Shown here: in pieces, positions 7,928 through 39,720 of the stretch | How positions within the stretch are numbered: position 1 is the stretch's first letter | How the letters are laid out: each line of letters begins with the position of its first letter | From: Hyphomonadaceae bacterium | GTDB lineage: Bacteria; Pseudomonadota; Alphaproteobacteria; Rhizobiales; Hyphomicrobiaceae | DNA length: 64,000 bases | Assembly (NCBI GenBank): GCA_019747815.1 | Contig: JAIEQJ010000055.1 | Coordinates: forward strand, 1 to 64,000 | Direction of reading: 5' to 3' | Position numbers and translations under genes: made by a program | The notes under the pieces: generated by a model | The model's database searches: none | What the model was told of the DNA's origin: nothing | Seen by the model: the letters and a program-made list of their open reading frames with translations, nothing else

Positions 7928-7996
7928 GGCTTCCTCCCATCTTCTCCTGCTTGTGTTGTCTGTCTCGAGACCACCAGGTACGCGATCCGATATGAT

Positions 7997-9097: not shown

Positions 9098-9100
9098 GGA

Positions 9101-10228
9101 TCAGGCCTGCAGCGAGGGGAGCACGTTGCGGCCGGAGCCGGCATCGAAGAACAGCAGCCGCTCGACCGGAAAACGCAGCGCCGCGGGGTCACCCTGTTGG
9201 ATTTTCATCGGCCCCGGCGTCTCGATCGCAAGGCGCACCGGGGCTGCGGCGTCGCGACTTTCAAGGTCGACCAGGACAACATCGACGTCGCCTCGCGTCT
9301 CGCGATAGAAGAACCGGGCACCAATGCTCGTCTCGTCCGGCCCCTCCTGCGCCACCAGTATGTGCTCCGGCCGGATACCCAGGATCACCTCGCTGCCGCT
9401 CAGGGCCCCAGAGAGTTGCGCTGCGATGGCACGATCGACCGCCACGCTCCAACCTGCACCACGAACGTGCATTTGGGCCCCGGCGGTGGAGATCTGACCG
9501 GTCAGGAGGTTGATCGGCGGCTCGCCGATGAAGTTCGCGACGAACACATTGGCTGGCGCGGCATAGAGGTCCTGCGGCGTGCCGATCTGCTGGAGGACTC
9601 CGCCATTCATGATCGCGACCTGATCAGCCATCGCGATCGCCTCCGTCTGATCGTGCGTGACCAGGATCGAGGTCAGGCCGCTCTCCTGCTGCAGCCGTTT
9701 GATCTCGGTTCGCAGATAGACCTTCTGATCAGCGTCGAGATGGCTGAGCGGTTCGTCGAACAGGATCAACTCGGGATCGCGGACGAGCGCGCGCCCGATC
9801 GAGACGCGCTGTTGAGCGCCGCCACTGAGCGCCTTCACGCCCTGGCCGCTCCACTGCTCCAGGCCGAGAAGAGCAAGGGCCTGCCGGACGCGCTTGTCGA
9901 TCTCGGTCTGCGAAAATCCTCGCAGCCGCAATGGAAACGCGATGTTCTCGAAGACCGAAAGGTGTGGGTAGAGAGCGTAATCCTCAAACACCATCGCCAG
10001 GTTGCGTTCGCCAGGCTCCAGGCTCGCAACAGAACGTCCGTCGAAAAGGATGTCGCCGCGCGTGACCTCCTCGACACCGGCAATCATCTTCAAAGTCGAG
10101 CTCTTGCCACAACCCGACGGCCCGAGCAGCGCCAGCATCTTGCCGTCGGGGCACGTCAGTGACAAGTCAACGACCGCCTCGACAGCTCCGTACACCTTCC
10201 AGACGCTATCGAGTTGGATGGTCGCCAT
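9101..10228 (-). CDS. ABC transporter ATP-binding protein (MalK/UgpC-like)
   Basis: Walker A GPSGCGKSSTLKMIAG, LSGGAQQRVSIGRALVRDPELILFDEPLSHLD, VTHDQTEA. Confidence 0.93.
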   Translation of the reverse strand: MATIQLDSVWKVYGAVEAVVDLSLTCPDGKMLALLGPSGCGKSSTLKMIAGVEEVTRGDILFDGRSVASLEPGERNLAMVFEDYALYPHLSVFENIAFPLRLRGFSQTEIDKRVRQALALLGLEQWSGQGVKALSGGAQQRVSIGRALVRDPELILFDEPLSHLDADQKVYLRTEIKRLQQESGLTSILVTHDQTEAIAMADQVAIMNGGVLQQIGTPQDLYAAPANVFVANFIGEPPINLLTGQISTAGAQMHVRGAGWSVAVDRAIAAQLSGALSGSEVILGIRPEHILVAQEGPDETSIGARFFYRETRGDVDVVLVDLESRDAAAPVRLAIETPGPMKIQQGDPAALRFPVERLLFFDAGSGRNVLPSLQA

Positions 10229-11282: not shown

Positions 11283-11408
11283 CACCAAATTCTCTTGCCG
11301 GCCAGCGACCTAGCCTCGGCTTCACATCCCCGACACACGCGGCTAGTATGTCGCCGCTTGACAGGGGGTGGAGTTCGATTCGCTTGGTGAAATGAACAGA
11401 ACCGCGCC

Positions 11409-11969
11409 GTGAACGCCTACGCTGCCACGCCCGAAACCTTTCCGGCGCTCGTCCTGAACGCCGACTTCCGGCCGCTTAGCTACTACCCGCTGTCGCTGTG
11501 GAGCTGGCAGGAGTCGGTGAAGGCGGTCTTCCTGGAGAGGGTGAACATCGTTTCAGAATACGATCGCCTAGTGCGCAGCCCCTCCTTCGAGATGCGCCTG
11601 CCGAGCGTCGTGTCGCTCAAGACCTACGTCAAGCCGGCCCTCTATCCGGCATTTACGCGGTTCAACGTGTTCCTCCGCGACCGCTTCACCTGCCAATATT
11701 GCGGCGCCAGGAACGATCTGACATTTGACCACCTGATCCCCCGCTCGCGGGGCGGACAGACCCGGTGGGACAATGTGGTCGCGGCCTGCGCGCCCTGCAA
11801 TCTGCTCAAAGGCGGCAGCTTGCCCGATCAGAGCGGCATGCGGCCGAGGCAGGTGCCCTACCGGCCGACGGTGTTCGAGCTCCATCGCAACGGACGACTG
11901 TTCCCGCCGAACTACCTGCACCAGAGCTGGCTCGACTATCTCTACTGGGATACCGAACTCGAGCCATAA
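11409..11969 (+). CDS. HNH endonuclease
   Basis: FLRDRFTCQYCGARNDLTFDHLIPRSRGGQTRWDNVVAACAPCNLLKGG. Confidence 0.92.
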   Translation: MNAYAATPETFPALVLNADFRPLSYYPLSLWSWQESVKAVFLERVNIVSEYDRLVRSPSFEMRLPSVVSLKTYVKPALYPAFTRFNVFLRDRFTCQYCGARNDLTFDHLIPRSRGGQTRWDNVVAACAPCNLLKGGSLPDQSGMRPRQVPYRPTVFELHRNGRLFPPNYLHQSWLDYLYWDTELEP

Positions 11970-17128: not shown

Positions 17129-17947
17129 ATGCAGAGCATTCTTCTTCCGATCGACCAAGGCGAGCAAATGCCCGCAGTCCTGGAGACCGCGCGGCTGCTG
17201 GCACGTCGGTTCGAGGCAACCATCGAGGGCGTGGCGCTGCGCCCTGCGTTTGCCGAGATCGTGGCGCCGGACCCCATCGTTGCCGTCACCATTCCCCCCG
17301 CCGATTGGAATGAGACCGAGTTTTGCCGCAGCGTGCGCCAGACCTTTGACGCGTACGCGGCCCAGCACGCCCCGGGAGCGGGCAAAGGCGCCCGCTTCCG
17401 CTGGCGCGGCGGCTCCGCGATCGAGGATGGGGCTCTTGGCAGCTTGGGCCGCGTCTATGATGTCACCGTGCTTGGCCGGCCGGGCGGTCGCGGCGCGCGC
17501 ATGACGGCGCTCGAGGCGGCGCTTTTCGACAGTGGCAGACCCGTGCTGATGGCCCCGCCCCAAGCGCCCAAGACGCTGGGTGAAACGGTGCTTATCCATT
17601 GGAATGCCAGCACGGAAACCGCCCGCTGCATGCTGTTTGCCATGCCGCTCCTGAAGCAGGCCAAGCGCGTATCCATGATCGCCGTCGACGGGGCGATGGC
17701 ACCGGGCCCAAGCATCAAGGACGCGGTGGGCTACTTGGCCGCGAATGGGATCGAGGCAACGGACAAGACAGTCCCGGGAAGCTCCTCACGCGCCGGCGAG
17801 GCCATTCTGGCTGAGGCCGCATCGATCCGGGCCGACCTGCTGATCAAAGGGGCCTACACGCAAAGCCGGCTGCGGCAGATGATCTTCGGTGGCGCCACCA
17901 GCCACATCCTGTCGGCGGCGGGACTACCGGTGTTCTTTGCGCACTAA
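17129..17947 (+). CDS. universal stress protein (UspA family)
   Basis: MQSILLPIDQGEQMPAVLETARLLARRFEATIEGVAL ... GAYTQSRLRQMIFGGATSHILSAAGLPVFFAH. Confidence 0.88.
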   Translation: MQSILLPIDQGEQMPAVLETARLLARRFEATIEGVALRPAFAEIVAPDPIVAVTIPPADWNETEFCRSVRQTFDAYAAQHAPGAGKGARFRWRGGSAIEDGALGSLGRVYDVTVLGRPGGRGARMTALEAALFDSGRPVLMAPPQAPKTLGETVLIHWNASTETARCMLFAMPLLKQAKRVSMIAVDGAMAPGPSIKDAVGYLAANGIEATDKTVPGSSSRAGEAILAEAASIRADLLIKGAYTQSRLRQMIFGGATSHILSAAGLPVFFAH

Positions 17948-19219
17948 AGCAGGGAGTTGCGACAGACCCGTGCGCGCTCCCCCAACGCGCTCCTCGCGGA
18001 GGCTGCGCACGCCCCAAAAGATGGATAGCCCCGCCAGGGCCGCAGCCGCGGCGAGTGCGAACGAAGCCATGTAGCTGCCCGTCATCTCATACAGCAGGCC
18101 GGAACTCCACGAGCCCAGGCCCGCTCCCAGACCCATGGACAACGACAGTGTTCCATAGATGGTGCCGACGCCGCCGCCGGGAAACAGCCTTGCGACCAGG
18201 GCTATGATGATCGGCCCGCGGGCGCCCTGCATCAGGCCGAAGAACCAGACAAAGGCATAGACCAGCACGAGCGACGGCCAAACCGAAACGAGCATCAGCG
18301 CCACGATGCCCACGACCGTCGAAAGATATGACCAGCTCGCCGTGTACAGGCGGCCGAATCGGTCCGACAGCCAGCCGATCGCGAGGATGCCGAACACCGA
18401 CAGCATCCCCGTCAGACCGAATGCGCTGGCGGCGAGGAGCGGATTGAACCCCGCCTCGATCAGATAGGCAACCGAATGCGGCAGGACGCTGTAGGCCGCG
18501 GCCGAGGTGAAGAGATAGGCCGCAAACAGGCCCCAGAAGGCACTCGTACGCACCGCTGTGCCAACCGTCCACGGCCCGGCGGCCGCTGTGGTTGGCTGGC
18601 GTCGCAGTTTCTGCCACGCCAGCGAGCCGGCCGTCATGCGTCTGAGCGGAGCCAGCATGATCAGCGGCAGCATGAGAAGCACGCCCGCGCCGAGCAGCCG
18701 GTGCGCCACGCGCCAGTCGGTGCTGGCCAGCATGAGCTGTGTCAGCGGCGGCAGGATCAGCATGCCCGCTCCGATGGCCGCATAGGGAACCGACATGATC
18801 GTGCCGATGCGGTCCGTGAACCAGCGCGACAGCAGCGCGGAGGCGGCGATCATGCCGAGCGAGGCCGAGCCCAGGCCGCCCAGGAAACCCGCGGCGAACA
18901 GGTAGTGCCACAGCTCGGTTGCCGAGCCCGCCAGAAGATAGCCGCAGCCGAGGCTCGCAAGGCCGAAACCGTAGGCGATCCGTGCACCGAAGCGATCTAT
19001 CAGCTGGCCGGCCAAAGGCGCAAAAGCTCCATAGGCCAGCATGAAGACCGAGTAGGTGAGCGTGATCTCGGGGCGCGAGACGCCGAGACCTTGCTGCACC
19101 GGCAATAGAAACACGGCAAACGTCTCGGTCACCCCGCGCGCGATCATGTTCATGAGGAAGGTGACGACGAGCAGGGTGCCCAGGAAGGCGCGCCCTGCGT
19201 GGTCACCGGCCCCATTCAC
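17924..19219 (-). CDS. MFS transporter
   Basis: FAVFLLPVQQGLGVSRPEITLTYSVFMLAYGAFAPLAGQLIDRFGARIAYG; GTG start at 19219 inferred. Confidence 0.88.
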   Translation of the reverse strand: MNGAGDHAGRAFLGTLLVVTFLMNMIARGVTETFAVFLLPVQQGLGVSRPEITLTYSVFMLAYGAFAPLAGQLIDRFGARIAYGFGLASLGCGYLLAGSATELWHYLFAAGFLGGLGSASLGMIAASALLSRWFTDRIGTIMSVPYAAIGAGMLILPPLTQLMLASTDWRVAHRLLGAGVLLMLPLIMLAPLRRMTAGSLAWQKLRRQPTTAAAGPWTVGTAVRTSAFWGLFAAYLFTSAAAYSVLPHSVAYLIEAGFNPLLAASAFGLTGMLSVFGILAIGWLSDRFGRLYTASWSYLSTVVGIVALMLVSVWPSLVLVYAFVWFFGLMQGARGPIIIALVARLFPGGGVGTIYGTLSLSMGLGAGLGSWSSGLLYEMTGSYMASFALAAAAALAGLSIFWGVRSLREERVGGARTGLSQLPALVRKEHR

Positions 19220-19250
19220 GCGCGTGTCTCGCTCGCCGCTTGGTATCGGA

Positions 19251-19901
19251 TCAGATCCGCTGAAACTTGGCCATGGCCTCGCGAAAGGACAGTCCCTTGG
19301 CCAGCTCGGCAGCGGCCTGCTCGTCATCCTTGGCATAGCGCGCCGCCAGCATCGCCACGTGCGCCGCGTGCTCCGAAGGGATGCAGACGATCCCCGACCC
19401 GTCCGCGACAATCACATCGCCGGGGCATACCCGCACCCCGCCACATCCGATCGGCTCGTTGATGGCTGTGATGGCAAGCCGGGTGCGGCCGGTCAGCGGC
19501 GTCATGTGCCGGGCAAAGACCGGGAAGGCGTGCTCGATCATCTCCTCCTGGTCGCGCACGCCGCCGTCAGCAACCAACCCGCCGATCCCCTTCGTCTTGG
19601 CAGCCAAGGTCGCGAGGCCGCCGAAGGTCGAAACGCACCGACCGCCATTGTCGACGACCAAAACGTCGCCGCGTCCGGCCGCATCGATCATGTGTCCAAC
19701 CTTGAAGTCCTCCGACGTGAAATCGCCGCGCCGGCCTGTCACCTCTCGAATCGTTACGGCACGGCCGACGCAGCGGGTACTCGGCACGACTTGCATGAGG
19801 CCCTGCATCACGCCCTCGAAGGCGACGTCGTCGAGCGCATTGGCAATGGTCGAAGTGGCCAAAGTCGCGAACGCCTGCAAGATTTCATCAGAAACGCCCA
19901 T
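19251..19901 (-). CDS. RraA family protein (HMG/CHA aldolase-like)
   Basis: ATSTIANALDDV, GRGDVLVVDNGGR, FGGLATLAAKTKGIGGLVADGGVRD. Confidence 0.88.
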   Translation of the reverse strand: MGVSDEILQAFATLATSTIANALDDVAFEGVMQGLMQVVPSTRCVGRAVTIREVTGRRGDFTSEDFKVGHMIDAAGRGDVLVVDNGGRCVSTFGGLATLAAKTKGIGGLVADGGVRDQEEMIEHAFPVFARHMTPLTGRTRLAITAINEPIGCGGVRVCPGDVIVADGSGIVCIPSEHAAHVAMLAARYAKDDEQAAAELAKGLSFREAMAKFQRI

Positions 19902-20783: not shown

Positions 20784-22460
20784 TCAGAACAGCCCCTCGA
20801 TCTGCCCCTTCTCATTGAGGCGGATGCTGTTGGCCGAGGGGACCTTCGGCAAGCCCGGCATGGTCATGATCTCGCCTGTGATCACGACAATGAACTCGGC
20901 GCCCGCCGAGAGCCTGAGCTCGCGAATGGGCACGACGTGATTGCTCGGCGCGCCCCTGAGATTGGGATCGGTGGAGAAGGAGTACTGCGTCTTGGCCATG
21001 CACACGGGCAGATGGCCATAGCCGGCGGCCTGCAGCTCCTTGAACTGATTGCGCACGCTGGTATCGGCCACGATCTCGGATGCATGATAGATCTCGGTGG
21101 CGATCGTCTTCACCTTGTCCCACAGCGGCATCTCGTCGGGATACAGCGGCTTGAACTTCGACTGTCCGCTGTCGGCCATATCCACCACGTGCCGCGCCAG
21201 CGACTCGATGCCCTTGCCGCCCTCGCCCCAGTGCGTGCACAGGAAAGCCCTGGTGCCCGCGCTTTCGGCCGCCTTCATGACTTCCTGAATTTCCCGATCC
21301 GTGTCGGTAATGAAGCGGTTGATGGCCACGACCGGCGGCACGCCGAACTTCTTCACGTTCTCGATGTGGCGCTTGAGATTGTCGCAACCCTTGGCGACGG
21401 CGGCGGCATTCTCGTTCTTCAAGTCGTCCTTCGCCACGCCGCCATGCATCTTGAGCGCGCGCACGGTTGCCACGATGACGGCCGCCGCCGGATTGAGCCC
21501 GGCCTTGCGGCACTTGATGTCGAAGAATTTCTCCGCACCCAGGTCGGCACCAAAGCCGGCCTCCGTCACCACGTAATCGGCCAATTTGAGCGCGGTGCGC
21601 GTCGCCAGCACCGAGTTGCAGCCATGCGCGATATTGGCAAAGGGACCACCGTGGATGAAGACTGGATTGTTCTCCAGCGTCTGCACCAGGTTGGGCATCA
21701 GCGCGTCCTTCAGGAGCACGGTCATGGCGCCGTCACCCTTCAGGTCGCGCGCCAGCACGGGCTTCCTCTCGCGCGTGTAGCCCACGACGATGTTGCCGAG
21801 CCGGCGCTCCAGGTCCTTCAAATCCATGGCGAGACACAGGATCGCCATCACCTCGCTGGCGACCGTGATGTCAAAGCCATCCTCGCGCGGAAACCCGTTG
21901 GCAGTGCCGCCCAGGGAGTTCACGATCGAGCGCAGCGCGCGGTCGTTCATATCCATGACGCGACGCCACGAGATGCGCCGTGCATCGAGCCCCAGCGGAT
22001 TGCCCCAGTAGATCTGATTGTCGAGCAGCGCCGAGAGCAGGTTGTGGGCAGAGGTGATGGCGTGAAAATCACCGGTGAAGTGGAGATTGATGTCCTCCAT
22101 CGGCACCACCTGGGCATAGCCGCCGCCGGCCGCGCCGCCCTTGACCCCGAAGCACGGTCCAAGCGACGGCTCGCGCAGGCAGCTCATGGCTTTCCTGCCG
22201 ATCCGGTTGAGGCCGTCGCCGAGGCCAACCGTGGTGGTGGTCTTGCCCTCGCCCGCTGGAGTCGGGCTGATGGCCGTCACCAGGATCAGCTTGCCGTCCT
22301 TGTTCTTCTTGGCCGCTTCGATGAAATCGTAGCTCACCTTGGCCTTGTAGGGGCCGTAGTTCAGCAGGGCGCTTGCAGGGACGCCGATCTTGCTGCCGAC
22401 CTCCGCGATCGGCTGCATATTCGCCTCGCGCGCAATCTCAATATCAGACTTCACAGCCAT
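20784..22460 (-). CDS. fhs: formate--tetrahydrofolate ligase
   Basis: [68 protein letters not shown]. Confidence 0.97.
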
Positions 22461-22501: not shown

Positions 22502-23440
22502 TCAAGTGCTGGATTTCGGTGCCGCCGGCTTTTCGAAGCTGTCACCGGCCTTGACGCCTGCGGACTTGGCCCATTCTCCGGCTGCGACCTTCTTGCCGTC
22601 GCCGCCGCGGACGCGCTTGGCGAGGATGGCACCGCCACCGGCGGCAATCGTCATCCCCTGATCGTCCACGGCGAGCACTTCACCCGGCGCACCGCTGCCG
22701 GCGACCTTCGCGCTGTCGAAGATATCGACCTTTTGCCCCTTGATGGTGCTCCAGGCGCCGGGCGCCGGATTGACGGCGCGGATGAGGTTGTAGACCTCGC
22801 CAACAGGCTTTGCCCAATCGATTGCGGCAAGATCCTTCTTGAACCAGCTTTCGTACGACCCGTCGGCAAGATTCTGCGGGTGCCTGAGCACGGCGCCGGC
22901 GCGCACCAGCTCCAATCCCTCGATCATCGCGTCGACGCCCATCGGAAACAGCTTCTTGAAATAGACGTCGCCGAGCGTCTCGTCGGGGCCGATCTCCACC
23001 GACTTCTGGATCAGGATCGGACCCTCATCGAGCCCCTCGTTGGGCCAGAAGATGGTCAGGCCGGTCCGCGTCTTGCCCATGGCGATCGGCCAATTGATCG
23101 ATGACGGCCCGCGGTGCGCCGGCAGCAGCGATGGGTGGTACTGGAAGGTGCCGAACCGCGGCGCATCCAGCACCGGCTGCGGAACGAACAGCAGCACGTA
23201 GGCCATCATGCACACGTCGGCATTGAACGACTTCATCAGCTCGAGCGCTTCAGGTGTCTTCCAGCTCTTGGGCTGATGCACGGGCAAGCCCTTCTCGAGC
23301 GCGAACAGCTTGAGCGGGTCTTCCGGCCGGCCGGCCTTGTCCGGTGCGCAGCACACCGCCACCACGTTCTCCTTACGCTCCAACAGCTTCTCGAGCACGG
23401 CCTTGCCGAAGGCCTCCTGCCCATGCACGACGATGCGCAT
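22502..23440 (-). CDS. formyltransferase/10-formyl-THF hydrolase-like protein resembling the N-terminal domain of ALDH1L1
   Basis: GTFQYHPSLLPAHRGPSSINWPIAMGKTRTGLTIFWPNEGLDEGPILIQKSVEIGPDETLGDVYFKKLFPMGVDAMIEGLELV ... RAVNPAPGAWSTIKGQKVDIFDS. Confidence 0.85.
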   Translation of the reverse strand: MRIVVHGQEAFGKAVLEKLLERKENVVAVCCAPDKAGRPEDPLKLFALEKGLPVHQPKSWKTPEALELMKSFNADVCMMAYVLLFVPQPVLDAPRFGTFQYHPSLLPAHRGPSSINWPIAMGKTRTGLTIFWPNEGLDEGPILIQKSVEIGPDETLGDVYFKKLFPMGVDAMIEGLELVRAGAVLRHPQNLADGSYESWFKKDLAAIDWAKPVGEVYNLIRAVNPAPGAWSTIKGQKVDIFDSAKVAGSGAPGEVLAVDDQGMTIAAGGGAILAKRVRGGDGKKVAAGEWAKSAGVKAGDSFEKPAAPKSST

Positions 23441-23503
23441 CATACTCTCCGCATTTGCTATGAAGGGCGCCATCCCGCCTGCGCGGGAAGGCGCCGAGCC
23501 ACT

Positions 23504-24790
23504 CTATTCAGCCGCAGCCTTTCGCACCGGTGCCGTGGCGCCGGCGTCGGCCAGCGCTACGATCTCGTCCGCCGAGTAGCCGAGCTCGGACAGCACTTCA
23601 TTGGTGTGCTCCCCGAGCAGCGGCGAGCGCTTCACATCTGCAGCGCTGGCGGACAGCTTGATCGGATTGCCCACCGACAGGTACTTGCCGCGCGTGGGAT
23701 GATCGACCTCCACCATCGTGCCGGTGGCAAACAGCGACTTGTCCTCGGCCAGCTCCTTCATGGAAAGGATCGGCCCGCAGGGGATGTCGTACTTGTTCAG
23801 GATATCCATGGCCTCGAACTTGGTCTTGGTCATGGTCCATTGCTCGATACGGGCGAAGATCGCGTTCAGCCGCGGCAGGCGTGCCGGCGGCTTGGCGTAA
23901 TCGGGATGGGTCTTCCAGCCGGGCTCGCCAATGACGTCGCAGATCGCTTCCCACACCGGCGCCTGGGTAATGAAATAGATGTACGCGTCGGGATCCGTTT
24001 CCCACCCCTTGCACTTGAGGATGCGTCCCGGCTGGCCGCCGCCCGAATCGTTGCCCGCGCGCGGCACGGCCTTGCCGAAGGGAATGCCCTCACCGAACTG
24101 GCTGTATTCCTTGAGCGGACCATGCGCCAGGCGCTGCTGGTCGCGCATCTTCACCCGCGCCAGGTTGAGAACGCCGTCCTGCATGGCGCAGGTGACGCGC
24201 TGGCCCTTGCCCGACATGGTGCGGTGATAAAGCGCCGTCACGATGCCGAGCGCCAGATGCAGGCCGGTGCCTGAATCTCCAATCTGCGCCCCCGTCACCA
24301 ACGGCGGACCATCGCGGAAGCCCGTTGTGGAGGCCGAGCCGCCGGTGCACTGCGCGACGTTCTCGTACACCTTGCAGTCTTCATAGGGGCCGGGACCGAA
24401 ACCCTTGACGGAGGCGTAGATCATCCGTGGGTTCAGCTCCTGGATGCGCTGCCAGGTGAGCCCCATGCGGTCGAGCGCGCCAGGTGCGAAGTTCTCCACG
24501 AGCACATCGCACTTCTTCACCAGCCGCTCCAGGATCTCCAGGCCCTTCTTGTTCTTGCTGTCGATCGTGATGGAGCGCTTGTTGTGGTTCAGCATCGTGA
24601 AATAGAGGCTGTCCACGTTCGGTATGTCCTGCAGCTGGCCGCGCGTGATGTCGCCGACGCCGGGGCGCTCGACCTTGATCACGTCGGCGCCGAACCAGGC
24701 GAGCAGCTGCGTGCAGGTCGGACCCGACTGGACGTGGGTGAAATCGAGAATGCGGACGCCTTCAAGTGCTTTCATTGCGTGCTCCATCAC
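23504..24790 (-). CDS. frc: formyl-CoA:oxalate CoA-transferase
   Basis: [82 protein letters not shown]. Confidence 0.93.
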
Positions 24791-26529
24791 TTCCTTTTCA
24801 CCACGCTTTGCGGGTTGAGATTGCCGATTCTGCCGCTCTCGCTGCCGGCCGCCGGATCGATCACGGCGTTGATGAGCGTCGGCTTGCCGGAGTCCATGGC
24901 TTGGTTCACGGCGCGCCTGAGCTCGTCGGACGTTGTCGCGTTGAAGCCGACGCCGCCGAAGGCATCCATCATCTTGTCGTAGCGCGAGTCCTTGACAAAG
25001 ACTGTCGGCGCAACGTCCGGACCGCCCGTCGGATTGACGTCGGTGCCGCGATAGATGCCGTTGTTGTTGAAGACGACGACGCAGACCGGCAGGTTGTACC
25101 GGCAGATCGTCTCCACCTCCATCCCGGAGAAGCCAAAGGCGCTGTCGCCTTCGAGCGCGAGCACAGGCTTTCCGGTCTCGATGGCTGCGCCGATGGCAAA
25201 GCCCATGCCGATACCCATGACGCCCCAGGTACCGACGTCCAAGCGCTTGCGCGGCTTGTACATGTCGATGACGCCGCGCGCGAGATCGAGCGTGTTGGCG
25301 CCCTCGTTGACCAGTATGGCGTCGGGCCGCTCCTTGATGATGGTGCGCAGCACACCGAGCGCGCTGTGGAAGTCCATCGGCACCGAGTTCTTCAGCAGCC
25401 TCGGCGCCATCTTGGCAATGTTCTCTTCCTTCTTCGAGCTGACGGCCTTGATCCAGTCAGCCGGCGGGGCCGACCATTTGCCGTCGATACCCGCAAGCAG
25501 AGCCGACACACACGAGCCGATATCGCCGACCACGGGCGCGGCGATCTGGATGTTGCTGTCCATCTCCTTGGGATCGATGTCGATCTGAATGAACTTCTTC
25601 AAACCAGCATCACCCCAAGTCTTGCCCTTGCCGTGCGACAGCAGCCAGTTGAGGCGTGCGCCAATCAGCATCACGACGTCGGAGTCCTTCAGCACCGTCG
25701 AGCGTGCAGCACCGGCACACTGCGGATGCGTGTCGGGGAGAAGACCCTTGGCCATGCTCATGGGCAGGAAAGGGATGCCGCTCTTCTCGATCAGGGCGCG
25801 GATCAGATCATCGACCTGCGCGTAGGCTGCGCCCTTGCCGAGAATGATCAGGGGGCGCTTGGCGCCTTTCAGGACGTCAAGCGCCCGCTTGACGGCATCT
25901 GGGGCCGGGATCTGGGCCGGCGCCGCGTCGATGACCTTGACGAGCGACTTGGCTCCAGCGTCCGCCTTCATGACCTGTGAGAAAAGCTTGGCCGGCAGGT
26001 CCAGATAGACGCCGCCCGGGCGGCCAGACACAGCCGCGCGGATCGCGCGCGCCACGCCGATGCCGATGTCTGCGGCATGCAGCACGCGAAAGGCCGCCTT
26101 GCACAGCGGCTTGGCGATTGCGAGCTGATCCATCTCTTCGTAGTCGCCCTGCTGCAGGTCGACGATCTCGCGCTCGGACGAGCCGCTGATCAGGATCATC
26201 GGGAAGCAGTTGGTCGTGGCATTGGCCAGCGCTGTCAGCCCGTTGAGAAAGCCGGGCGCCGAAACCGTAAGGCAGACGCCGGGCATCTTCGTCAGGAAGC
26301 CGGCGATGGCCGCGGCGTTGCCGGCGTTCTGCTCATGCCGGAACGAAATGACGCGTATGCCTGCGGCCTGTGCCATGCGACCCAAGTCCGTGATTGGGAT
26401 GCCGGGCACACCGTAGATCGTGTTGATGCCGTTGAGCTTGAGCGCATCGATGACGAGATGGAAGCCGTCCGTAAGCTCCTGCTCTCCTCCAGCTCCACTC
26501 GCATCAATGCTTTGCACTGTTGCGGACAT
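24787..26529 (-). CDS. oxc: oxalyl-CoA decarboxylase (ThDP-dependent)
   Basis: [100 protein letters not shown]. Confidence 0.96.
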
Positions 26530-26770
26530 TTCACTCTCTCCCCTCGAAATTTGCCACTCGGCCATGCTCCTCGCAGTGCAAGGGCCGCGACCCGCTCAGG
26601 CAGCACATCAACGTTCTCGGCTGTGAGCGCCTTCGCCACCAGATGGCCGACCGAGGCCACGCTGCCAAACTCTGTCTTCGCATTCAGATGTCATCCCGTG
26701 GTCGCCGGCTTCACTGCCGCATCGGCCGCCGGGAACCTCTCCTCGCTCTTCGGTGCTTCACTCCTGTGCA

Positions 26771-27457
26771 TCAGTCGAGCGCTACAAAGCGCTCCACGTG
26801 CTCCCTCAGTCGCAAGGTATGCTCGCGCACCAGCCGCTCCGCGCGTTCCGTGTCGCGGGCTTCCAGCGCGGCGACGATGTCCTTGTGATCGATGACCGAC
26901 CGCTTGGCGCGGTCCTGCTCGAAAATCGTGCGCTGCCGGATGGCGCGCACGTGAAAGAACAGGGTGTCGGTGATGTCGGTGATCAGCGAATTCTTACCCA
27001 ATCCAATGATCGCCTGATGGAACTTGATGTTGGCGTCCGAATACTCGCCCATCTTCGCGGCCACCTTGTCCTGCGAGAACTGGTCGACCAACGTGTGCAG
27101 TCCGGCGAGATCCTCCGCGCTTGCATGCTTCGTTGCCAGCCGCGCGGCCATGCTTTCGAGCGCCGCCCAAACCGTGATCATGTCAAGGACCTCGGCTTTG
27201 GTCTTGCGCACGATGAAGATGCCCCGACGGGCCACGATCTTGACGAGTCCCTCCTGATCGAGTTGCGCCAAGGCCTCGCGCAGCGGCGTACGGCTCACGC
27301 CGAACCGCTGCGAAAGGTCGCGCTCATCCAGACGCAGCTCGGCGTCGTCGGCGTAGATGTTCATATTCGTGATGGCGGCCTTGAGCGCCTCGTAGGCGCG
27401 CGCCTTCAAGCTAAGGCCTTCACCGATAGGCGCGATTTTCAGCTGAGTGTCAGCCAC
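26771..27457 (-). CDS. GntR-family regulator (FCD/FadR-type C-terminal domain)
   Basis: DERDLSQRFGVSRTPLREALAQLDQEGLVKIVARRGIFIV; GTG start at 27457 inferred. Confidence 0.9.
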   Translation of the reverse strand: MADTQLKIAPIGEGLSLKARAYEALKAAITNMNIYADDAELRLDERDLSQRFGVSRTPLREALAQLDQEGLVKIVARRGIFIVRKTKAEVLDMITVWAALESMAARLATKHASAEDLAGLHTLVDQFSQDKVAAKMGEYSDANIKFHQAIIGLGKNSLITDITDTLFFHVRAIRQRTIFEQDRAKRSVIDHKDIVAALEARDTERAERLVREHTLRLREHVERFVALD

Positions 27458-27504
27458 AGCACACCTGACCTGATATTGCCCGCCGTGGGGCACGCTATGG
27501 TTCT

Positions 27505-27521
27505 TGGTATACCATACACCA
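27505..27521. promoter_or_regulatory. putative GntR operator, site 1: TGGTATACCATACACCA
   Basis: Matches TGGYAYA-N3-TRYRCCA, 48 nt upstream of the gntR start. Confidence 0.65.
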
Positions 27522-27655
27522 GAGCAGATCAAGCGGCAAGAGCGGGGGTTGCCGGTCCTGTCCACATTCGCACAACTCTGCTGTCTGACAATCCGATGGC
27601 GTTTCAAATTTTCTTTGCGCAGCCCTCAAATGGTCTATTGCAATGGCCTGGCACT

Positions 27656-27672: not shown

Positions 27673-27745
27673 GACACCCGAACATGTAGAATTGGACTAT
27701 AAGAAGTCGGGCCTTCGGCGCAGGAAACGACGGGAAGGTACTCTC

Positions 27746-29293
27746 GTGGACGAGATCGTCTCGCTCATCGGCGGCTTCAAAGTCGCGCTCTCTTGGTACA
27801 ATTTGGCTTTGATGATCGTCGGCATCCTGCTGGGCGTCATCATAGGCGTGTTGCCGGGGCTCGGCGGCGCCAATGGCGTGGCGATCCTGCTGCCGCTGAC
27901 ATTTGCCATGCCTCCCACCTCGGCCATCATCATGCTCTCCTGCATCTACTGGGGAGCACTCTTCGGTGGGGCCATCACCTCGATCCTTTTCAACATTCCA
28001 GGCGAGCCCTGGTCTGTGGCGACGACCTTCGATGGCCATCCCATGGCGCAGCAGGGCAGGGCCGACGAGGCGTTGACCGCCGCATTCACCTCGTCCTTCG
28101 TGGGTGCCCTGGTCGCCGTGGTCGTCATCACCTTCCTGGCACCCCTCGTTGCAAAGTTCGCCTTGCAGTTCGGGCCCGCAGAGTTCTTCTCGGTCTTCTT
28201 CCTCACCTTTGCCAGCTTCGTCGGCATGGGCAAGGGCTCGCCCTTCAAGGTGCTGGCCTCGATGTGCCTCGGGTTTGCGCTCGGCGCCGTCGGCCTGGAT
28301 AAGGTCACGGGCACATTGCGGATGACCTTCGGTCACGAGGAGTTGCTGATCGGCTTCGACTTCCTGATTGCCGTCATCGGCCTGTTCGGGATCGGCGAAA
28401 TCCTATCATCTATGGAAAGCGGCCTGAAATTCTCGGGCAGCCACGCCACCATCCGGCTGAACGTAGTGCTGCAGACTTGGAAGCATCTTCTGAAGCTGTG
28501 GGTTACCTCCATCCGGAGCTGCATCGTCGGCTGCTGGATGGGAATCACGCCCGGCGGTGCCACGCCTGCCTCGTTCATGAGCTACGGCCTCGCCAAGCGC
28601 TTTTCCAAGCGCGGTGCCAACTTCGGCAAGGGCGAAGTGGAGGGCGTGGTTGCGCCCGAGACGGCGGCGCACGCGGCTGGCACCAGCGCCCTGTTGCCGA
28701 TGCTCACCCTCGGCATTCCTGGATCACCGACGGCAGCCGTGCTGTTGGGAGGCCTTATGATCTGGGGCCTGCAGCCGGGTCCGATGCTCTTTGTGGAGCA
28801 GAAGGATTTTGTGTGGGGGCTGATTGCCTCGATGTATCTGGGCAATATCGCTGGCCTCATCATCGTGCTCACCTGCGTGCCGCTGTTTGCAGCCATTCTC
28901 AGGGTGCCGTTCTCCATCATTGCCCCGATCATCCTCGTCATTTGCGCGGTCGGCGCCTACACCGTGCACAACAGCATGTTCGACGTCTGGCTCATGCTGG
29001 CATTCGGGGTCGTCGGCTACATCTTCACCAAGCTCGACTACCCGCTGCCGCCGCTGGTGCTGGCCATTGTGCTCGGCGACAAGGCCGAGGAATCGTTCAG
29101 GCAGGCCATGCTGGCGTCGCAGGGCAACTTGAGCATCTTCTGGTCGAATTGGCTGGTGGGATCGATCATGACGCTCGGCACCATCCTGCTGTTCTGGCCG
29201 CTGGTGACCTGGCTCCAGGACAAGCGGCGCAGCTTGAATTCAAGGCCCGTCGCGGCATCGGCGGGAGCTGCGGCAGTGGACAAGGAGCGCTGA
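27746..29293 (+). CDS. tripartite tricarboxylate transporter permease (TctA family)
   Basis: GVLPGLGGANGVAILLPLTFAMPPTSAIIMLSCIYWGALFGGAITSILFNIPGEP ... LGIPGSPTAAVLLGGLMIWGLQPGP; GTG start inferred. Confidence 0.93.
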   Translation: MDEIVSLIGGFKVALSWYNLALMIVGILLGVIIGVLPGLGGANGVAILLPLTFAMPPTSAIIMLSCIYWGALFGGAITSILFNIPGEPWSVATTFDGHPMAQQGRADEALTAAFTSSFVGALVAVVVITFLAPLVAKFALQFGPAEFFSVFFLTFASFVGMGKGSPFKVLASMCLGFALGAVGLDKVTGTLRMTFGHEELLIGFDFLIAVIGLFGIGEILSSMESGLKFSGSHATIRLNVVLQTWKHLLKLWVTSIRSCIVGCWMGITPGGATPASFMSYGLAKRFSKRGANFGKGEVEGVVAPETAAHAAGTSALLPMLTLGIPGSPTAAVLLGGLMIWGLQPGPMLFVEQKDFVWGLIASMYLGNIAGLIIVLTCVPLFAAILRVPFSIIAPIILVICAVGAYTVHNSMFDVWLMLAFGVVGYIFTKLDYPLPPLVLAIVLGDKAEESFRQAMLASQGNLSIFWSNWLVGSIMTLGTILLFWPLVTWLQDKRRSLNSRPVAASAGAAAVDKER

Positions 29294-29349: not shown

Positions 29350-30405
29350 ATGATGGCATTTCAGAAAGCTGCTGAGCCGAGATGGGCGGGCAGTATCTGC
29401 CGCTTGGCGGCCGCGGGCACGCTGGCCGCATCCACCCTGGTGTTGTCGACACCGCAGGCCGTTGCGCAGACTTGGGAACCGACCAAGCCCATCCAGTTTG
29501 TCATTCCCGCCGGTACGGGCGGTGGTGCCGACCAGATGGCGCGCTTCATCCAGGGTGTGGTGGCGAAGAACAACCTGGCGAAGCAGCCGATTATCACCGT
29601 CAACAAAGCCGGTGGGGCCGGGGCGGAAGGCTTCTTGGAAGTCAAGAAGTCCGCTGGCGATCCTCACAGCATCATCATCACGCTGTCGAACCTGTTTACG
29701 ACCCCGCTGGCTACGGGCGTTCCCTTCAACTGGAAGGACATGACGCCGGTGGCCATGCTGGCCCTCGACCAGTTCATTCTCTGGGTGCCGGCGGATGCAC
29801 CCTACAAGACGGCGAAGGAGTACATCGAGGCGGTGAAGGCCGCCCCCGACAAGTCCTACAAGATGGGCGGCACCGGCTCCAAGCAGGAAGACCAGATCAT
29901 CACCGTGGCTCTGGAGAAGCTGACGGCACCCAAGAAGTTCACCTACATTCCGTTTGCTGGTGGTGGTGCCGTGGCCGTGCAGCTCGTCGGCAAGCATGTA
30001 AACTCGACCGTGAACAATCCGATCGAGGCCGTCTCGCAGTGGAAGGCAGGCGCACTGAACCCGCTGTGCCTCTTCGACTCCAAGCGCAGCGTGTACACCC
30101 TGAAGGTTACCGCCACCATGGCCTGGTCGGACATTCCGACTTGCAAGGAAGTCGGCGTCAACACCGAGTACCAGATGCTGCGCGGCATCTTCATGTCGCC
30201 CGGCGTGAAGCCCGAGCACATCGCCTACTACGTCGATCTCTTCAAGAAGGTGATGGCGACCGACGATTGGAAGTCGTTCATGGAGCAGGGTGCGTTCAAT
30301 CAGACCTTCATGACAGGCGACGAGTTCAGGCGCTGGGTCGAAAATGCCGAGAGGCAGCACCACGATCTGATGAAGGAAGCGGGCTTCCTGGCAGCAGGCA
30401 AGTGA
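29350..30405 (+). CDS. tripartite tricarboxylate transporter substrate-binding protein (TctC/Bug family)
   Basis: Signal peptide; WEPTKPIQFVIPAGTGGGADQMARFIQGVV; next to tctA. Confidence 0.9.
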   Translation: MMAFQKAAEPRWAGSICRLAAAGTLAASTLVLSTPQAVAQTWEPTKPIQFVIPAGTGGGADQMARFIQGVVAKNNLAKQPIITVNKAGGAGAEGFLEVKKSAGDPHSIIITLSNLFTTPLATGVPFNWKDMTPVAMLALDQFILWVPADAPYKTAKEYIEAVKAAPDKSYKMGGTGSKQEDQIITVALEKLTAPKKFTYIPFAGGGAVAVQLVGKHVNSTVNNPIEAVSQWKAGALNPLCLFDSKRSVYTLKVTATMAWSDIPTCKEVGVNTEYQMLRGIFMSPGVKPEHIAYYVDLFKKVMATDDWKSFMEQGAFNQTFMTGDEFRRWVENAERQHHDLMKEAGFLAAGK

Positions 30406-30496
30406 GCCATTGCGAGGGCTTGCGCCTGCAATCGCAGCGCGCCGGCCCTCGCTGCGACTTCAATCGGTCTGCCCCTCAACCACAGGATCAAACGAT

Positions 30497-31009
30497 ATGC
30501 AGAAGGGTGAAGACACCAACGACGGGCGGCCGCTGGTTACGAACCGGACGATGGAGATCGTGGTCGCCCTGGTTCTATTGGCTGGATGCACGCTGGTCAT
30601 CTACGACAGCGTTCGGTTGGGCTTCGGATGGCGCGAAGGTGAGGGGCCGGCGCCTGGCTACTATCCGTTCTGGGTAGCGGTGATCTTGGCCGTATCCAGT
30701 TTCATCAACCTGGTCAGCGCCGCCCGCAGCGCCGGCGCAAGCGAAACCTTTGTGTCCCTGCGGCCGTTCGGCCGCGTTCTGGCGGTGCTGGTTCCGAGCC
30801 TCATCTACGTAGCGCTGATTGGCTATATCGGCATCTACGTGGCCTCGGCGATCTTCATCTTCGCCTTCATGATTGCGGTGGGGCGGGAAAATCCGCTCAA
30901 GGCGATTGGCGTCGCGGCCGTCGTACCGGTAGCCTTGTTCTTCATGTTCGAGAAATGGTTCCTGGTTCCCCTGCCGAAGGGCCCCCTGGAAGCCTGGCTC
31001 GGCTACTGA
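30497..31009 (+). CDS. tripartite tricarboxylate transporter TctB family protein
   Basis: Small 4-TM protein; GPAPGYYPFWVAVILAVSSFINL, IGYIGIYVASAIFIFAFM. Confidence 0.88.
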   Translation: MQKGEDTNDGRPLVTNRTMEIVVALVLLAGCTLVIYDSVRLGFGWREGEGPAPGYYPFWVAVILAVSSFINLVSAARSAGASETFVSLRPFGRVLAVLVPSLIYVALIGYIGIYVASAIFIFAFMIAVGRENPLKAIGVAAVVPVALFFMFEKWFLVPLPKGPLEAWLGY

Positions 31010-32297: not shown

Positions 32298-34013
32298 ATG
32301 AACGATTCGTCGAAAATGGCTCACGACACTGGCAGGGCGCGCGCGATCCATCCGGGTTCAGGCCGCCGCAAGGCCGCTGCATTCCCCCGCGGCCGTGTCC
32401 TCAGGGACAGCGAAATCGCCGCGGTCAAGGCGCTTTTGGGTGAACGGCCGCGCGAGCGCGCCCTGCTGATCGAGTATCTCCACCTCATCCAGGACAAGGA
32501 AGGGTGCCTGCCCGAGGGCCAGCTGCATGCCCTGGCGGAGGAACTCCGCATCCCGATGGCTGAGGTCTATGAGGTGGCGACCTTCTATGCGCATTTCGAT
32601 GTCGTCGGCGAGGAGGAGCAGCGCCCTCCCGCGATCACCATCAGGGTGTGCGACAGCCTGAGCTGCATGCTGGCCGGGGCAGAAAAACTGCTCCGCGAGC
32701 TGGAGAACGAGAGGATGCCGGGGATTCGCGTGCTGCGCGCTCCGTGCATCGGCTCCTGCGATACGGCGCCAGCCGCGGAGGTCGGCCACTGCCATGTCGA
32801 TTACGCAACCAAGGCCAAGCTGCTCGAAATCGTGGCGCGCAAGGACGTGCATCCCGCTATTCCTGCCTATCAGGCCTTTGAGGCGTACGCGCATGCAGGC
32901 GGCTATGCGGTCCTGCGCGCATGCTTGACGGGCGCGCGCAAGCCAGACGACGTGATTGCAACCCTTTCCGACAGTGGTTTGCGCGGCCTCGGCGGCGCAG
33001 GCTTTCCAACGGGACGCAAATGGAGCCTGGTGCGCAAGGAGCAGGCCCCCCGCCTGATGGCGGTCAACGGCGATGAGGGCGAGCCCGGCACCTTCAAGGA
33101 TCGCTATTATCTCGAGCGAGAGCCGCACAAGTTCCTGGAAGGCGCGCTGATTGCCGCCTGGGCGGTCGAAGCCGAGCAAGTCTTCATCTACATCCGCGAC
33201 GAGTATCCCGCGGTCATCAAGATCCTGAAGCAGGAGATCGCGAAGGTCGAAGCTGCAGGGCTTGCAAAGCACACGCAGCTCCACATTCGCCGCGGCGCCG
33301 GCGCCTATATCTGCGGCGAGGAGAGCGCCATGATCGAATCGATCGAGGGCAAGCGCGGCCTGCCCCGGCATCGTCCTCCCTATGTGGCGCAGGTCGGCCT
33401 GTTCGGCCGGCCGACGCTCGTCAACAATATCGAGACCCTCTATTGGGTGCCGGCCGTCCTGGAGAAGGGGGCGGCGTGGTTTGGCGCGCAAGGCAAGAAC
33501 GACGCCAAGGGCCTGCGCTCGTATTCGGTTTCAGGGCGCGTCAAAAACCCCGGCGTGGTGCTGACGGCTGCGGGCTCCACCGCCAAGGACCTCATAGCGC
33601 TGTGCGGCGGCATGGCGGAGGGGCATCATTTCAAGGGCTACCTGCCCGGTGGCGCTTCCGGGGGCATCCTGCCGGCATACATGGCCGACATTCCCCTCGA
33701 CTTCGGTCAACTCGAGAAGCACGGCAGCTTTGTCGGCAGCCATGCGGTCGTCATTTTGTCCGACCAAGACGACATGAAAGCCGTGGCCCTGAACCTGATG
33801 CGCTTCTTCGAGGACGAAAGTTGCGGCCAGTGCACGCCCTGCCGCAACGGCACTGAGAAGGCTGTCAAGCTCATGAGCACCGGCAATTGGAATGCCGAGC
33901 TGCTCGAAGACCTTGCACAGGTCATGGCGGATGCATCCATCTGCGGCCTCGGACAGGCGGCTCCCAATCCGCTCCGAAGCGTGTTCAGGTACTTTCCGGA
34001 GGATCTCCGGTGA
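32298..34013 (+). CDS. NAD-dependent formate dehydrogenase beta subunit, NuoE-NuoF fusion
   Basis: NuoE-like CxxxC region (VCDSLSCMLAG...APCIGSCDTAPA) followed by NuoF-like GLGGAGFPTGRKW, NGDEGEPGTFKDRYY, GAGAYICGEESAMIESIEGKRGLPRHRPPYVAQVGLFGRPTLVNNIETL, SCGQCTPCRNGTEK. Confidence 0.93.
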   Translation: MNDSSKMAHDTGRARAIHPGSGRRKAAAFPRGRVLRDSEIAAVKALLGERPRERALLIEYLHLIQDKEGCLPEGQLHALAEELRIPMAEVYEVATFYAHFDVVGEEEQRPPAITIRVCDSLSCMLAGAEKLLRELENERMPGIRVLRAPCIGSCDTAPAAEVGHCHVDYATKAKLLEIVARKDVHPAIPAYQAFEAYAHAGGYAVLRACLTGARKPDDVIATLSDSGLRGLGGAGFPTGRKWSLVRKEQAPRLMAVNGDEGEPGTFKDRYYLEREPHKFLEGALIAAWAVEAEQVFIYIRDEYPAVIKILKQEIAKVEAAGLAKHTQLHIRRGAGAYICGEESAMIESIEGKRGLPRHRPPYVAQVGLFGRPTLVNNIETLYWVPAVLEKGAAWFGAQGKNDAKGLRSYSVSGRVKNPGVVLTAAGSTAKDLIALCGGMAEGHHFKGYLPGGASGGILPAYMADIPLDFGQLEKHGSFVGSHAVVILSDQDDMKAVALNLMRFFEDESCGQCTPCRNGTEKAVKLMSTGNWNAELLEDLAQVMADASICGLGQAAPNPLRSVFRYFPEDLR

Positions 34014-34190
34014 CGCCGCGCCTTCCGGCCCAGGTCGTCGGCCCTGCGACTGCAGATGCAAGCTTGGCCGAGCTGAAGCAGGGTGTATCCTGTCCTTTCA
34101 AGGCTGGCGTCCGCCTCAATGTGTTCACCGACGACGACGTCGAATTTTGCCTTCGTTGAGACCGAGCTCAAGAACTGAGGCCTGCCCGCG

Positions 34191-36968
34191 ATGACAGATA
34201 AGATCACCTTCGAGCTGGACGGCAGCCAGGTCGAGGCCGAGCCAGGCGAGACCATCTGGCAGGTGGCTCAGCGCCACGGCACTAAGATTCCGCACCTGTG
34301 CTGGCATCCCGCCCCCGGCTACCGCGCCGATGGCAACTGCCGCGCTTGCATGGTGGAGGTTGAGGGCGAGCGCGTGCTGGCCGCGTCGTGCCAGCGCAAG
34401 GCCGCCCCCGGCATGAAGATCAAGACGGCCAGCGAGCGGGCCAAGAAATCGCGCCAGATGGTGTTTGAGCTGCTGGTGGCGGATCAACCCGCCCGCGAGG
34501 GCAGCCACGATCCGAAGTCGAGCTTCTGGAACTGGGTGGACGCCATGGGCGTCACCCCGACAAGCCGCTACCCCAAGGGCGAGCGCCCGGTTGCCGACAG
34601 CACGCATTCGGCCATTGCCGTCAATCTCGATGCCTGCATCAATTGCAATCTGTGCGTCCGCGCGTGCCGCGAGGTGCAGGCCAATGACGTGATCGGCATG
34701 GCCTATCGCGGGCACGGCGCCAAGGTCGTGTTCGATTTCGATGCCGGGATGGGCCAGTCGACCTGCGTCGCCTGCGGCGAATGCGTGCAGGTATGTCCGA
34801 CCGGCGCGTTGATGGAGAAGAGCCTGCTCGACGACGCGGGCAAGCGCGTGAACTACGAAACAAAGTCGGTGGACACGCTTTGCCCCTATTGTGGGGTCGG
34901 ATGCCAAACCCAGGTTCACGTCAAGGACAACAAGATCCTTTACGTGGATGGCCGCGACGGGCCCGCCAACAACAATCGCCTATGCGTCAAGGGCCGCTTC
35001 GGCTTCGACTACATCCACCATCCCGATCGGCTTACCAAGCCGCTCATCCGACGCGAGGGCGTCGCCAAGAGCGCCGACCTTCAGATCCGCCGCGACGAGG
35101 TCGACAAGTACTTCCGCGAGGCAACCTGGGAGGAAGCGCTGGCAAAGGCCGCCGCCGGCCTCAAGGCCGTCCACAAGCGCGACGGCGGCAAAGCCTTGGC
35201 CGGCTTCGGCTCGGCAAAGGGTTCGAACGAGGAAGCCTACCTCTTCCAGAAATTGATCCGGCAGGGCTTCGGCACCAACAACGTCGATCACTGCACGCGG
35301 TTGTGCCATGCCTCGTCGGTGGCAGCCCTGATGGAAGGGCTGAACTCGGGTGCGGTCACCGCGCCGTTCACGGCCGCCAAGGACAGCGACTGCATCATCG
35401 TCATCGGCGCACGACCGGCCGAGAATCACCCCGTCGCCGCAACCTTCCTCAAGAACGCGGCCAAGCGCGGCGCCAAGTTGGTCGTGATGGACCCGCGGGG
35501 GCAGAACCAGGGCATCGCGCGCTACGCCAGCCACACCCTGCAGTTCAAGCCAGGTCGCGATGTGGCTCTGCTCAACGCCATGCTGAATGTGATCGTGGCG
35601 GAGGGCATGGTCGACGTCCAGTACGTCCAGGCGCACACGGAAGGCTTTGAAAGCCTGAAGGCCAAGGTGAAGGACTTCACGCCGGAGGCCATGGAGCCGG
35701 TCTGCGGCATCTCCGCTGCCACCATTCGCGAGGTGGCGCGTCTCTACGCCCGCTCCGAGCGCTCAATCATCTTCTGGGGCATGGGCATCTCCCAGCACAC
35801 GCACGGCACCGACAACGCGCGCTGCCTGATCGCGCTCGCCCTGGTGACCGGACAGGTCGGTCGGCCAGGCACAGGACTGCATCCCCTGCGGGGTCAGAAC
35901 AATGTGCAGGGCGCCTCCGACGCGGGCCTGATCCCCATGGTGTTCCCTGACTACAAATCGGTGGAAGATGCCTCCATCCGAGGCGCCTACGAGGAGCTCT
36001 GGGGCACGAAGCTCGATGCCAAGAAGGGACTGACGGTGGTCGAGATCATGCACGCCATCAAGGACGGTGTGATCAAGGGCATGTATGTCATGGGCGAAAA
36101 CCCCGCCATGTCCGATCCCGACGTACAGCATGCACGCGAGGCGCTGGCAAAGCTCGAGCATCTCGTGGTGCAGGACATCTTTCTCACCGAAACGGCCTGG
36201 CACGCCGATGTGGTGCTGCCCGCCTCCGCCCACGCTGAGAAGTGGGGCACGTTCACCAACACGAACCGCCAGGTGCAGATTGCACGGCCCGTCATCGATC
36301 CGCCCGGTGACGCCCGCCAGGACTGGATCCTGATCCAGCAACTCGCACAGGGAGTTGGACTGAACTGGAACTACAAGGACATATCGGAGGTCTTCGCCGA
36401 GATGGCGAAGGTCATGCCGTCGTTGGACAACATCACCTGGGAGCGGCTGGTACGCGAGGATGCCGTGACCTATCCCTGCGACGCGCCCGACCAGCCGGGC
36501 AACGAGATCATCTTTGCAACGTCGTTCCCGACCAACTCCGGCCGGGCCAAGATCGTGCCCGCCGACCTCGTGCCCCCCGACGAGCTGCCCGACGAGGCTT
36601 ATCCGATGGTGCTGACCACCGGGCGGCTGCTCGAGCACTGGCATACCGGCTCCATGACCCGGCGCGCGTCAAACCTGGACAGCCTCGAGCCGGAAGCGAT
36701 CGCGGGCTTGAATCCAAGAGAGATGGACAAGCTCGGCATCCCGCCCGGCGGCTTCATCCGCGTCTCGACGCGGCGCGGCCAAGTCACGCTCAAGGCGCGC
36801 GCCGACCGCGACGTCGCCGAGGGGATGGTCTTCATCCCGTTCTGCTTTGCCGAAGCGGCTGCCAATCTGCTCACCAACCCGCAGCTCGATCCGATGGGCA
36901 AGATCCCCGAGTTCAAGTTCTGCGCCTGCAAGATCGAGCCGGCCGAAATGCTGGTGGCTGCGGAGTAG
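34191..36968 (+). CDS. formate dehydrogenase alpha (catalytic) subunit
   Basis: 2Fe-2S N-terminus, CINCNLCVRACREVQ and CVACGECVQVCPTGAL clusters, CPYCGVGCQTQV, DHCTRLCHASS (Cys at the metal ligand position). Confidence 0.93.
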   Translation: MTDKITFELDGSQVEAEPGETIWQVAQRHGTKIPHLCWHPAPGYRADGNCRACMVEVEGERVLAASCQRKAAPGMKIKTASERAKKSRQMVFELLVADQPAREGSHDPKSSFWNWVDAMGVTPTSRYPKGERPVADSTHSAIAVNLDACINCNLCVRACREVQANDVIGMAYRGHGAKVVFDFDAGMGQSTCVACGECVQVCPTGALMEKSLLDDAGKRVNYETKSVDTLCPYCGVGCQTQVHVKDNKILYVDGRDGPANNNRLCVKGRFGFDYIHHPDRLTKPLIRREGVAKSADLQIRRDEVDKYFREATWEEALAKAAAGLKAVHKRDGGKALAGFGSAKGSNEEAYLFQKLIRQGFGTNNVDHCTRLCHASSVAALMEGLNSGAVTAPFTAAKDSDCIIVIGARPAENHPVAATFLKNAAKRGAKLVVMDPRGQNQGIARYASHTLQFKPGRDVALLNAMLNVIVAEGMVDVQYVQAHTEGFESLKAKVKDFTPEAMEPVCGISAATIREVARLYARSERSIIFWGMGISQHTHGTDNARCLIALALVTGQVGRPGTGLHPLRGQNNVQGASDAGLIPMVFPDYKSVEDASIRGAYEELWGTKLDAKKGLTVVEIMHAIKDGVIKGMYVMGENPAMSDPDVQHAREALAKLEHLVVQDIFLTETAWHADVVLPASAHAEKWGTFTNTNRQVQIARPVIDPPGDARQDWILIQQLAQGVGLNWNYKDISEVFAEMAKVMPSLDNITWERLVREDAVTYPCDAPDQPGNEIIFATSFPTNSGRAKIVPADLVPPDELPDEAYPMVLTTGRLLEHWHTGSMTRRASNLDSLEPEAIAGLNPREMDKLGIPPGGFIRVSTRRGQVTLKARADRDVAEGMVFIPFCFAEAAANLLTNPQLDPMGKIPEFKFCACKIEPAEMLVAAE

Positions 36969-39709: not shown

Positions 39710-39720
39710 AGGAGAGGACC

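Follow-up and report, generated by a model that had tools for sequence, protein, structure and literature searches.

The window analysed here, a contig stretch of 64,000 nucleotides for which the closest relatives bearing a name are MAGs of the Rhizobiales and Hyphomicrobiaceae, carries an oxalate operon on the minus strand with the gene order oxc-frc-FT-fhs. The third gene, FT, encodes a stand-alone ALDH1L1-N-like formyltransferase of 312 aa, a predicted formyl-CoA/THF formyltransferase. It runs from an ATG at 23440 to a stop at 22502, exactly where the first-pass annotation had placed it, between fhs and frc; an in-frame ATG upstream, at 23473, is a possible alternative start. On one side of FT lie frc (formyl-CoA:oxalate CoA-transferase, 23504..24790, minus; 718.6 bits against TIGR03253, cut-off 504) and oxc (oxalyl-CoA decarboxylase, 24787..26565, minus; 1015.8 bits against TIGR03254, cut-off 739), and on the other fhs (formate-tetrahydrofolate ligase, 20784..22460, minus; 929 bits against NF010030, cut-off 652). 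oxc and frc share 4 nt, with 63 nt between frc and FT and 41 nt between FT and fhs. A gene for a GntR-type regulator (26771..27607, minus) heads the operon, a place it occupies in most loci; a promoter scan found nothing. The genome carries a second fhs copy elsewhere (G000:C107, 71.5% identical to the operon copy), so the copy in the operon looks dedicated.

Divergent from the operon, on the plus strand, is a tctA-like gene for a tripartite tricarboxylate transporter subunit (27740..29293, start approximate), followed on the same strand by genes for a tctC-like solute-binding protein (29350..30405) and a tctB-like small membrane subunit (30410..31009). The Tct names were taken from the annotation of the La 6 homologs, and the tctA-like gene is recurrent in related loci. 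An MFS transporter weakly similar to the oxalate/formate antiporter family (TIGR00890 and TIGR04259, below their cut-offs) is encoded at 17924..19411 (minus). A formate dehydrogenase with NuoF-like and alpha subunits (32298..36968, plus; 741.5 bits against TIGR01591, cut-off 666) is likely a formate sink near the operon, and formate dehydrogenase is also found close to several related operons. Close to it in the window is a gene for a molybdopterin-binding oxidoreductase of the xanthine dehydrogenase type (39034-41943).

The domain search identified only Formyl_trans_N and Formyl_trans_C in FT. As the first-pass annotation had stated, the protein has no aldehyde dehydrogenase domain; it has no carrier domain either, and the search did not find the C-terminal enoyl-CoA-hydratase-like domain of HypX. 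Its closest relative in the PDB is ALDH1L1-N (E 4e-55), with Fmt second (E 4e-42). FT scored 154.1 bits against the Fmt model TIGR00460, whose cut-off is 201.5, supporting the earlier view that it is not the housekeeping Fmt, and it also fell below the curated cut-offs of PurU, PurN and ArnA; the PurU model TIGR00655 gave 21 bits (cut-off 285.95), and the ACT domain is absent. Two other Formyl_trans_N genes are present in the genome, one PurN-like and one Fmt-like (G000:C111), and there is no PurU. With the AlphaFold model of FT (mean pLDDT 94.9), ALDH1L1-N was the top Foldseek match by E-value, whereas the TM-scores slightly favoured Fmt (~0.90) over ALDH1L1-N (0.86), so the fold alone is undecisive. 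The motifs from which the first-pass annotation had recognised the hydrolase domain are present, namely QYHPSLLPAHRGPSSINW, IFWPNEGLDEGPILIQK and NPAPGAWSTI. The block given as D-LLQ actually reads GPILIQ, and PGAW, located "near the C-terminus", occupies residues 227-230 of 312, making that description a loose one. The La 6 homolog of FT (L189:9001-9918, QEW23307.1) is annotated as fmt_2, a methionyl-tRNA formyltransferase, a label that probably reflects a more general mis-annotation.

We compared the active-site residues of 117 distinct FT homologs with those of ALDH1L1-N, Fmt and three HypX sequences. The ALDH1L1 triad His106/Ser108/Asp142, equivalent to His102-Ser104-Asp138 in FT, was invariant in 117/117 homologs, as was Tyr200. 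Two residues before the His, at the position of the catalytic Asn of Fmt, where a Gln had been noted from the window sequence, the homologs carry Gln (101/117) or Cys (16/117) and never Asn (0/117); this residue is Ile in ALDH1L1-N and Ile or Val in HypX. Pro107, Ser117, Asn/Asp120 and Trp121 are common to FT and ALDH1L1-N but not to Fmt, and, apart from a single Ala at 117, occur in HypX as well. FT shares the catalytic His and Asp and the SxxN/DW motif with both ALDH1L1-N and HypX. The other THF-site residues are also widely kept: Phe89 is F in 102/117 homologs, and Arg114 is R in 109 and K in 8. Active-site comparison, a check suggested in the first-pass annotation, gave an ALDH1L1-N/HypX-type site without the Fmt Asn. 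However, the active sites of HypX and FT differ, the triad Ser being absent from HypX, and we count this against the explanation that we favour below. Arg131 of HypX, which contacts the CoA phosphate, aligns to the invariant Phe161 of FT, so that a CoA site in FT is at most putative, another point against the favoured explanation; HypX Gln15 aligns to the mostly conserved Lys13.

The order gntR-oxc-frc-FT-fhs is kept around homologs of 50-88% identity and extends through the Alphaproteobacteria and Gammaproteobacteria, while MAGs labelled Binatia and Rokubacteria have FT without the oxalate-operon neighbours. Homologs do therefore occur near frc, oxc and fhs in other genomes; their complete absence from such neighbourhoods was what the first-pass annotation had said would speak against its proposal. 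For neighbour counts we used the 92 of 118 distinct FT loci in which each flank of FT measures 1.5 kb or more. frc adjoins FT in 71/92 of these and frc together with fhs in 57/92; 14 frc-FT loci have no adjacent fhs, and in 21/92 neither frc nor fhs lies beside FT, which we count against the favoured explanation. fhs was found beside frc in 0/13 loci without FT (p=3e-8). Among 60 relatives, 27 have both FT and Frc, 1 has Frc only and none FT only (p=3e-16), and among 289 alphaproteobacteria the numbers were 18 with both, 3 with FT only and 6 with Frc only (p=9e-21), although these p-values overstate the association because the genome samples are not phylogenetically independent. The 3 FT-positive genomes of the larger sample without a strong Frc hit also weigh against the favoured explanation. 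The co-occurrence persists in several genomes where FT and Frc are encoded at a distance from each other or on separate contigs, so it is more than linkage, and the conservation of both gene and neighbourhood excludes chance.

The stand-alone FT genes have diverse neighbours, and no common partner was found for them. At one locus without adjacent oxc or frc (L086:4603-6650 with 6754-8915), FT is accompanied by a GntR regulator and a divergent SucCD-like pair. Two genomes carry short ORFs inserted between oxc, frc and FT (L039:6243-6920 and 8933-9529; L048:10557-11117 and 11334-11909), which we take to resemble Uma2-family proteins.

Another, HACL-like TPP enzyme takes the place of oxc in ~40% of the linked loci, in operons that are otherwise identical (L043:5452-7200, L047:5147-6889, L051:10264-11991 and about 35 more loci). 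This enzyme is 71-90% conserved in most loci and is nearest to an actinobacterial 2-hydroxyacyl-CoA lyase (E 1e-73). The frc beside it passed the formyl-CoA:oxalate model in 2/2 cases tested, and the HACL-like enzyme may be an oxalyl-CoA decarboxylase not orthologous to Oxc. When the oxc and HACL labels were placed on a quick FT tree, well supported branches forced at least 9-11 changes between them, with FT constant throughout. Two loci, L120 and L139, contain the HACL-like gene and FT only, with no frc and no fhs. Since the TPP slot swaps while FT stays, and these two loci keep just hacl and FT, FT tracks the expected maker of formyl-CoA, which appears to be the common factor of the FT loci. 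In both L120 (8968-10746) and L139 (5663-7423) hacl-FT is followed by an AceK (isocitrate dehydrogenase kinase/phosphatase) gene, a hint that the glyoxylate shunt may be controlled there.

Four genomes (G011, G014, G016 and G034) have no stop between FT and Fhs, which form a single frame of ~880 codons with a low-complexity linker (L042:8559-11225, L044:8478-11114, L046:8180-10819 and L048:6493-9144). A candidate internal GTG start for Fhs is present in all four, and in three of them a good Shine-Dalgarno-like sequence precedes it. Fhs may thus also be produced on its own, whereas FT would be translated only within a fusion. We consider these shared frames moderate evidence. A hydrolase joined in one chain to the ligase producing its own substrate would waste ATP. 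A 730-aa open frame around FT in G103 was set aside, since frc and FT are there in different frames.

The linkage, the co-occurrence, the ALDH1L1-N/HypX-type site and the HypX precedent make transfer of formyl groups between formyl-CoA and THF, one of the activities put forward in the first-pass annotation, the best supported reading, and it is probable that FT is a reversible formyl-CoA/THF formyltransferase (formyl-CoA + THF <-> 10-formyl-THF + CoA). ALDH1L1-N delivers formyl to the 4'-phosphopantetheine thiol on its carrier domain, and its hydrolysis in vitro is seen only with high, non-physiological thiol (PMC8748788). HypX passes formyl to CoA (PMC6802093), and formyl transfer from 10-formyl-THF to CoA by its N-domain has, according to a review, been demonstrated experimentally (PMC12134894). 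Because both proteins deliver formyl to a phosphopantetheine thiol, a stand-alone FT would need a soluble one, for which CoA is by analogy the obvious candidate; we infer in this way the thiol partner, and likewise the reversibility and net direction of the reaction. As a folate enzyme working with its His102-Ser104-Asp138 triad, FT would carry the formyl group to and fro between N10 of THF and the phosphopantetheine thiol of CoA. Oxc would produce formyl-CoA, Frc would spend it in activating oxalate with release of formate, and Fhs would couple formate to THF, FT thereby connecting the formyl-CoA pool with the same folate pool as Fhs.

The idea that FT would bypass the ATP cost of Fhs fails as it was stated: each oxalate activated by Frc costs one formyl-CoA, which Oxc merely restores. 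There is thus no surplus, a point that also weighs against the favoured explanation, and net flow into THF requires a second way of activating oxalate. Genes for SucCD-like ADP-forming CoA ligases, found near the FT operon in 25 examined loci (L070, L080, L082, L085, L090, L073, L084, L086 and others), possibly encode such an activator. We suggest, with considerable doubt, that FT and Fhs could together act as a reversible formyl-CoA synthetase in which THF relays the formyl group (formyl-CoA + ADP + Pi <-> formate + CoA + ATP). Were this so, cells could use the formyl thioester of oxalate to gain ATP, provided that another CoA source activates oxalate, or they could make formyl-CoA from formate.

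Two directions are nearly equally likely: FT may move formyl into folate one-carbon assimilation, or it may, together with Fhs, supply formyl-CoA from formate. In the second case, a sub-case of the transferase reading that we regard as possible, FT would work mainly from 10-formyl-THF to CoA, and Fhs plus FT would be a THF-relayed formate-to-formyl-CoA ligase, setting the autocatalytic Frc/Oxc cycle going and making up for the formyl-CoA lost to hydrolysis. HypX works in this direction, and formyl-CoA is required to start Frc/Oxc; fhs adjoins frc only where FT is present, and FT and Fhs are in one frame in the four genomes mentioned above. What makes this direction attractive is the short life of formyl-CoA, which is hydrolysed with a half-life of 1.9 h, and the proposal that YfdE acts as the primer in E. 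coli (PMC3720670). However, the two hacl-FT loci without frc and fhs would require the opposite direction, the 14 frc-FT loci lack the adjacent ligase gene, and the La 6 operon lies among ppc, glyA, aminotransferase, hprA and folD genes, suggesting folate one-carbon assimilation. That plasmid cluster (Paracoccaceae; L190, CP031587.1 52000-100000) combines the oxalate-FT operon with formate dehydrogenase, ppc, sucCD, glyA, hprA, folD and a BhcA-like (glyoxylate-type) aminotransferase below its cut-off. In the window's genome, the best match to the canonical malate-CoA ligase of the serine cycle scored 529 bits (cut-off 604), too low to establish a classical serine cycle in that organism.

It is unlikely that FT is a plain 10-formyl-THF hydrolase, of the PurU or ALDH1L1-N type, setting the THF pool under high expression of Fhs. 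10-formyl-THF is indeed the substrate of both ALDH1L1-N and PurU, the genome has no PurU, and outside the host's family PurU occurs in 0/8 genomes with FT versus 11/16 without it (p=0.002), an exclusion that we count against the transferase reading, since a hydrolase replacing PurU would give the same pattern. Within the host's family, however, PurU is missing whether FT is present or absent, many of its FT-negative genomes being likewise without it, so a replacement is not needed and we rejected FT as a necessary substitute. A hydrolase would moreover set up an ATP-wasting cycle with the adjacent Fhs, in some genomes from the same frame; FT has no PurU-like ACT domain, the thiol requirement of ALDH1L1-N hydrolysis is non-physiological, and the tie to formyl-CoA enzymes would be left unexplained. 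Regulated release of formate by FT, also suggested in the first-pass annotation, is disfavoured. Very unlikely is a folate-free formyl-CoA thioesterase built on the formyltransferase fold and removing surplus formyl-CoA: it would fit the co-occurrence with formyl-CoA producers, but the folate-site residues are retained (Tyr200 in all homologs, Arg114 as R/K, Phe89 mostly F), the fhs linkage is specific to FT, and such an enzyme would drain the pool that Frc needs. A Met-tRNA or amine/sugar formyltransferase lying in the operon by happenstance would account for the shared fold (TM-score ~0.9 to Fmt) and for the public fmt_2 label, but is highly improbable given the score of 154 bits against the Fmt cut-off, the separate Fmt-like gene in the genome, the replacement of the catalytic Asn in every homolog and an operon without sugar-nucleotide genes.

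Accounts of oxalate metabolism keep the one-carbon pools of formyl-CoA and 10-formyl-THF apart. In the literature that we searched, which covered few subscription journals, we found no description of a formyltransferase in an oxalate operon, and HypX was the only documented bridge between the two pools. If the stand-alone bridge proposed here is real, oxalate metabolism would be redrawn in many Alpha- and Gammaproteobacteria, "fmt" annotations would be corrected, and synthetic one-carbon pathways that make formyl-CoA would gain a direct folate entry. The formyl-CoA/THF hypothesis is testable with one purified protein.

Among known systems, Fmt resembles FT in its two-domain architecture and fold, but FT is below its cut-off and lacks both the catalytic Asn and the Fmt active-site signature. 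PurU uses 10-formyl-THF, yet FT is far below its cut-off (21 vs 286) and has no ACT domain. The acetyl-CoA:oxalate CoA-transferase YfdE would fill a similar physiological slot, priming Frc/Oxc, if FT primes, but it is an unrelated protein with unrelated chemistry. The N-terminal (hydrolase) domain of ALDH1L1/ALDH1L2, the best sequence match of FT among solved structures, has like FT the His-Ser-Asp triad, HPSLLPxHRGxSxINW and no Fmt Asn, and its natural acceptor is a phosphopantetheine thiol; in contrast, FT is stand-alone and bacterial, belongs to oxalate operons, has no carrier or ALDH domain, and carries Gln or Cys where ALDH1L1-N has Ile104. The N-terminal domain of HypX (HoxX) shares with FT the Formyl_trans fold, the lack of an Fmt-type Asn and the HP and SxxDW motifs, and its documented reaction, from formyl-THF to CoA, is the one proposed for FT. 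The two are only ~21% identical, however, and FT has no enoyl-CoA-hydratase-like domain; HypX binds CoA between its two domains and makes CO, and its CoA-contacting Arg131 is not conserved in FT. What would be new is that, within oxalate metabolism, a stand-alone ALDH1L1-N-like enzyme carries out chemistry of the HypX kind.
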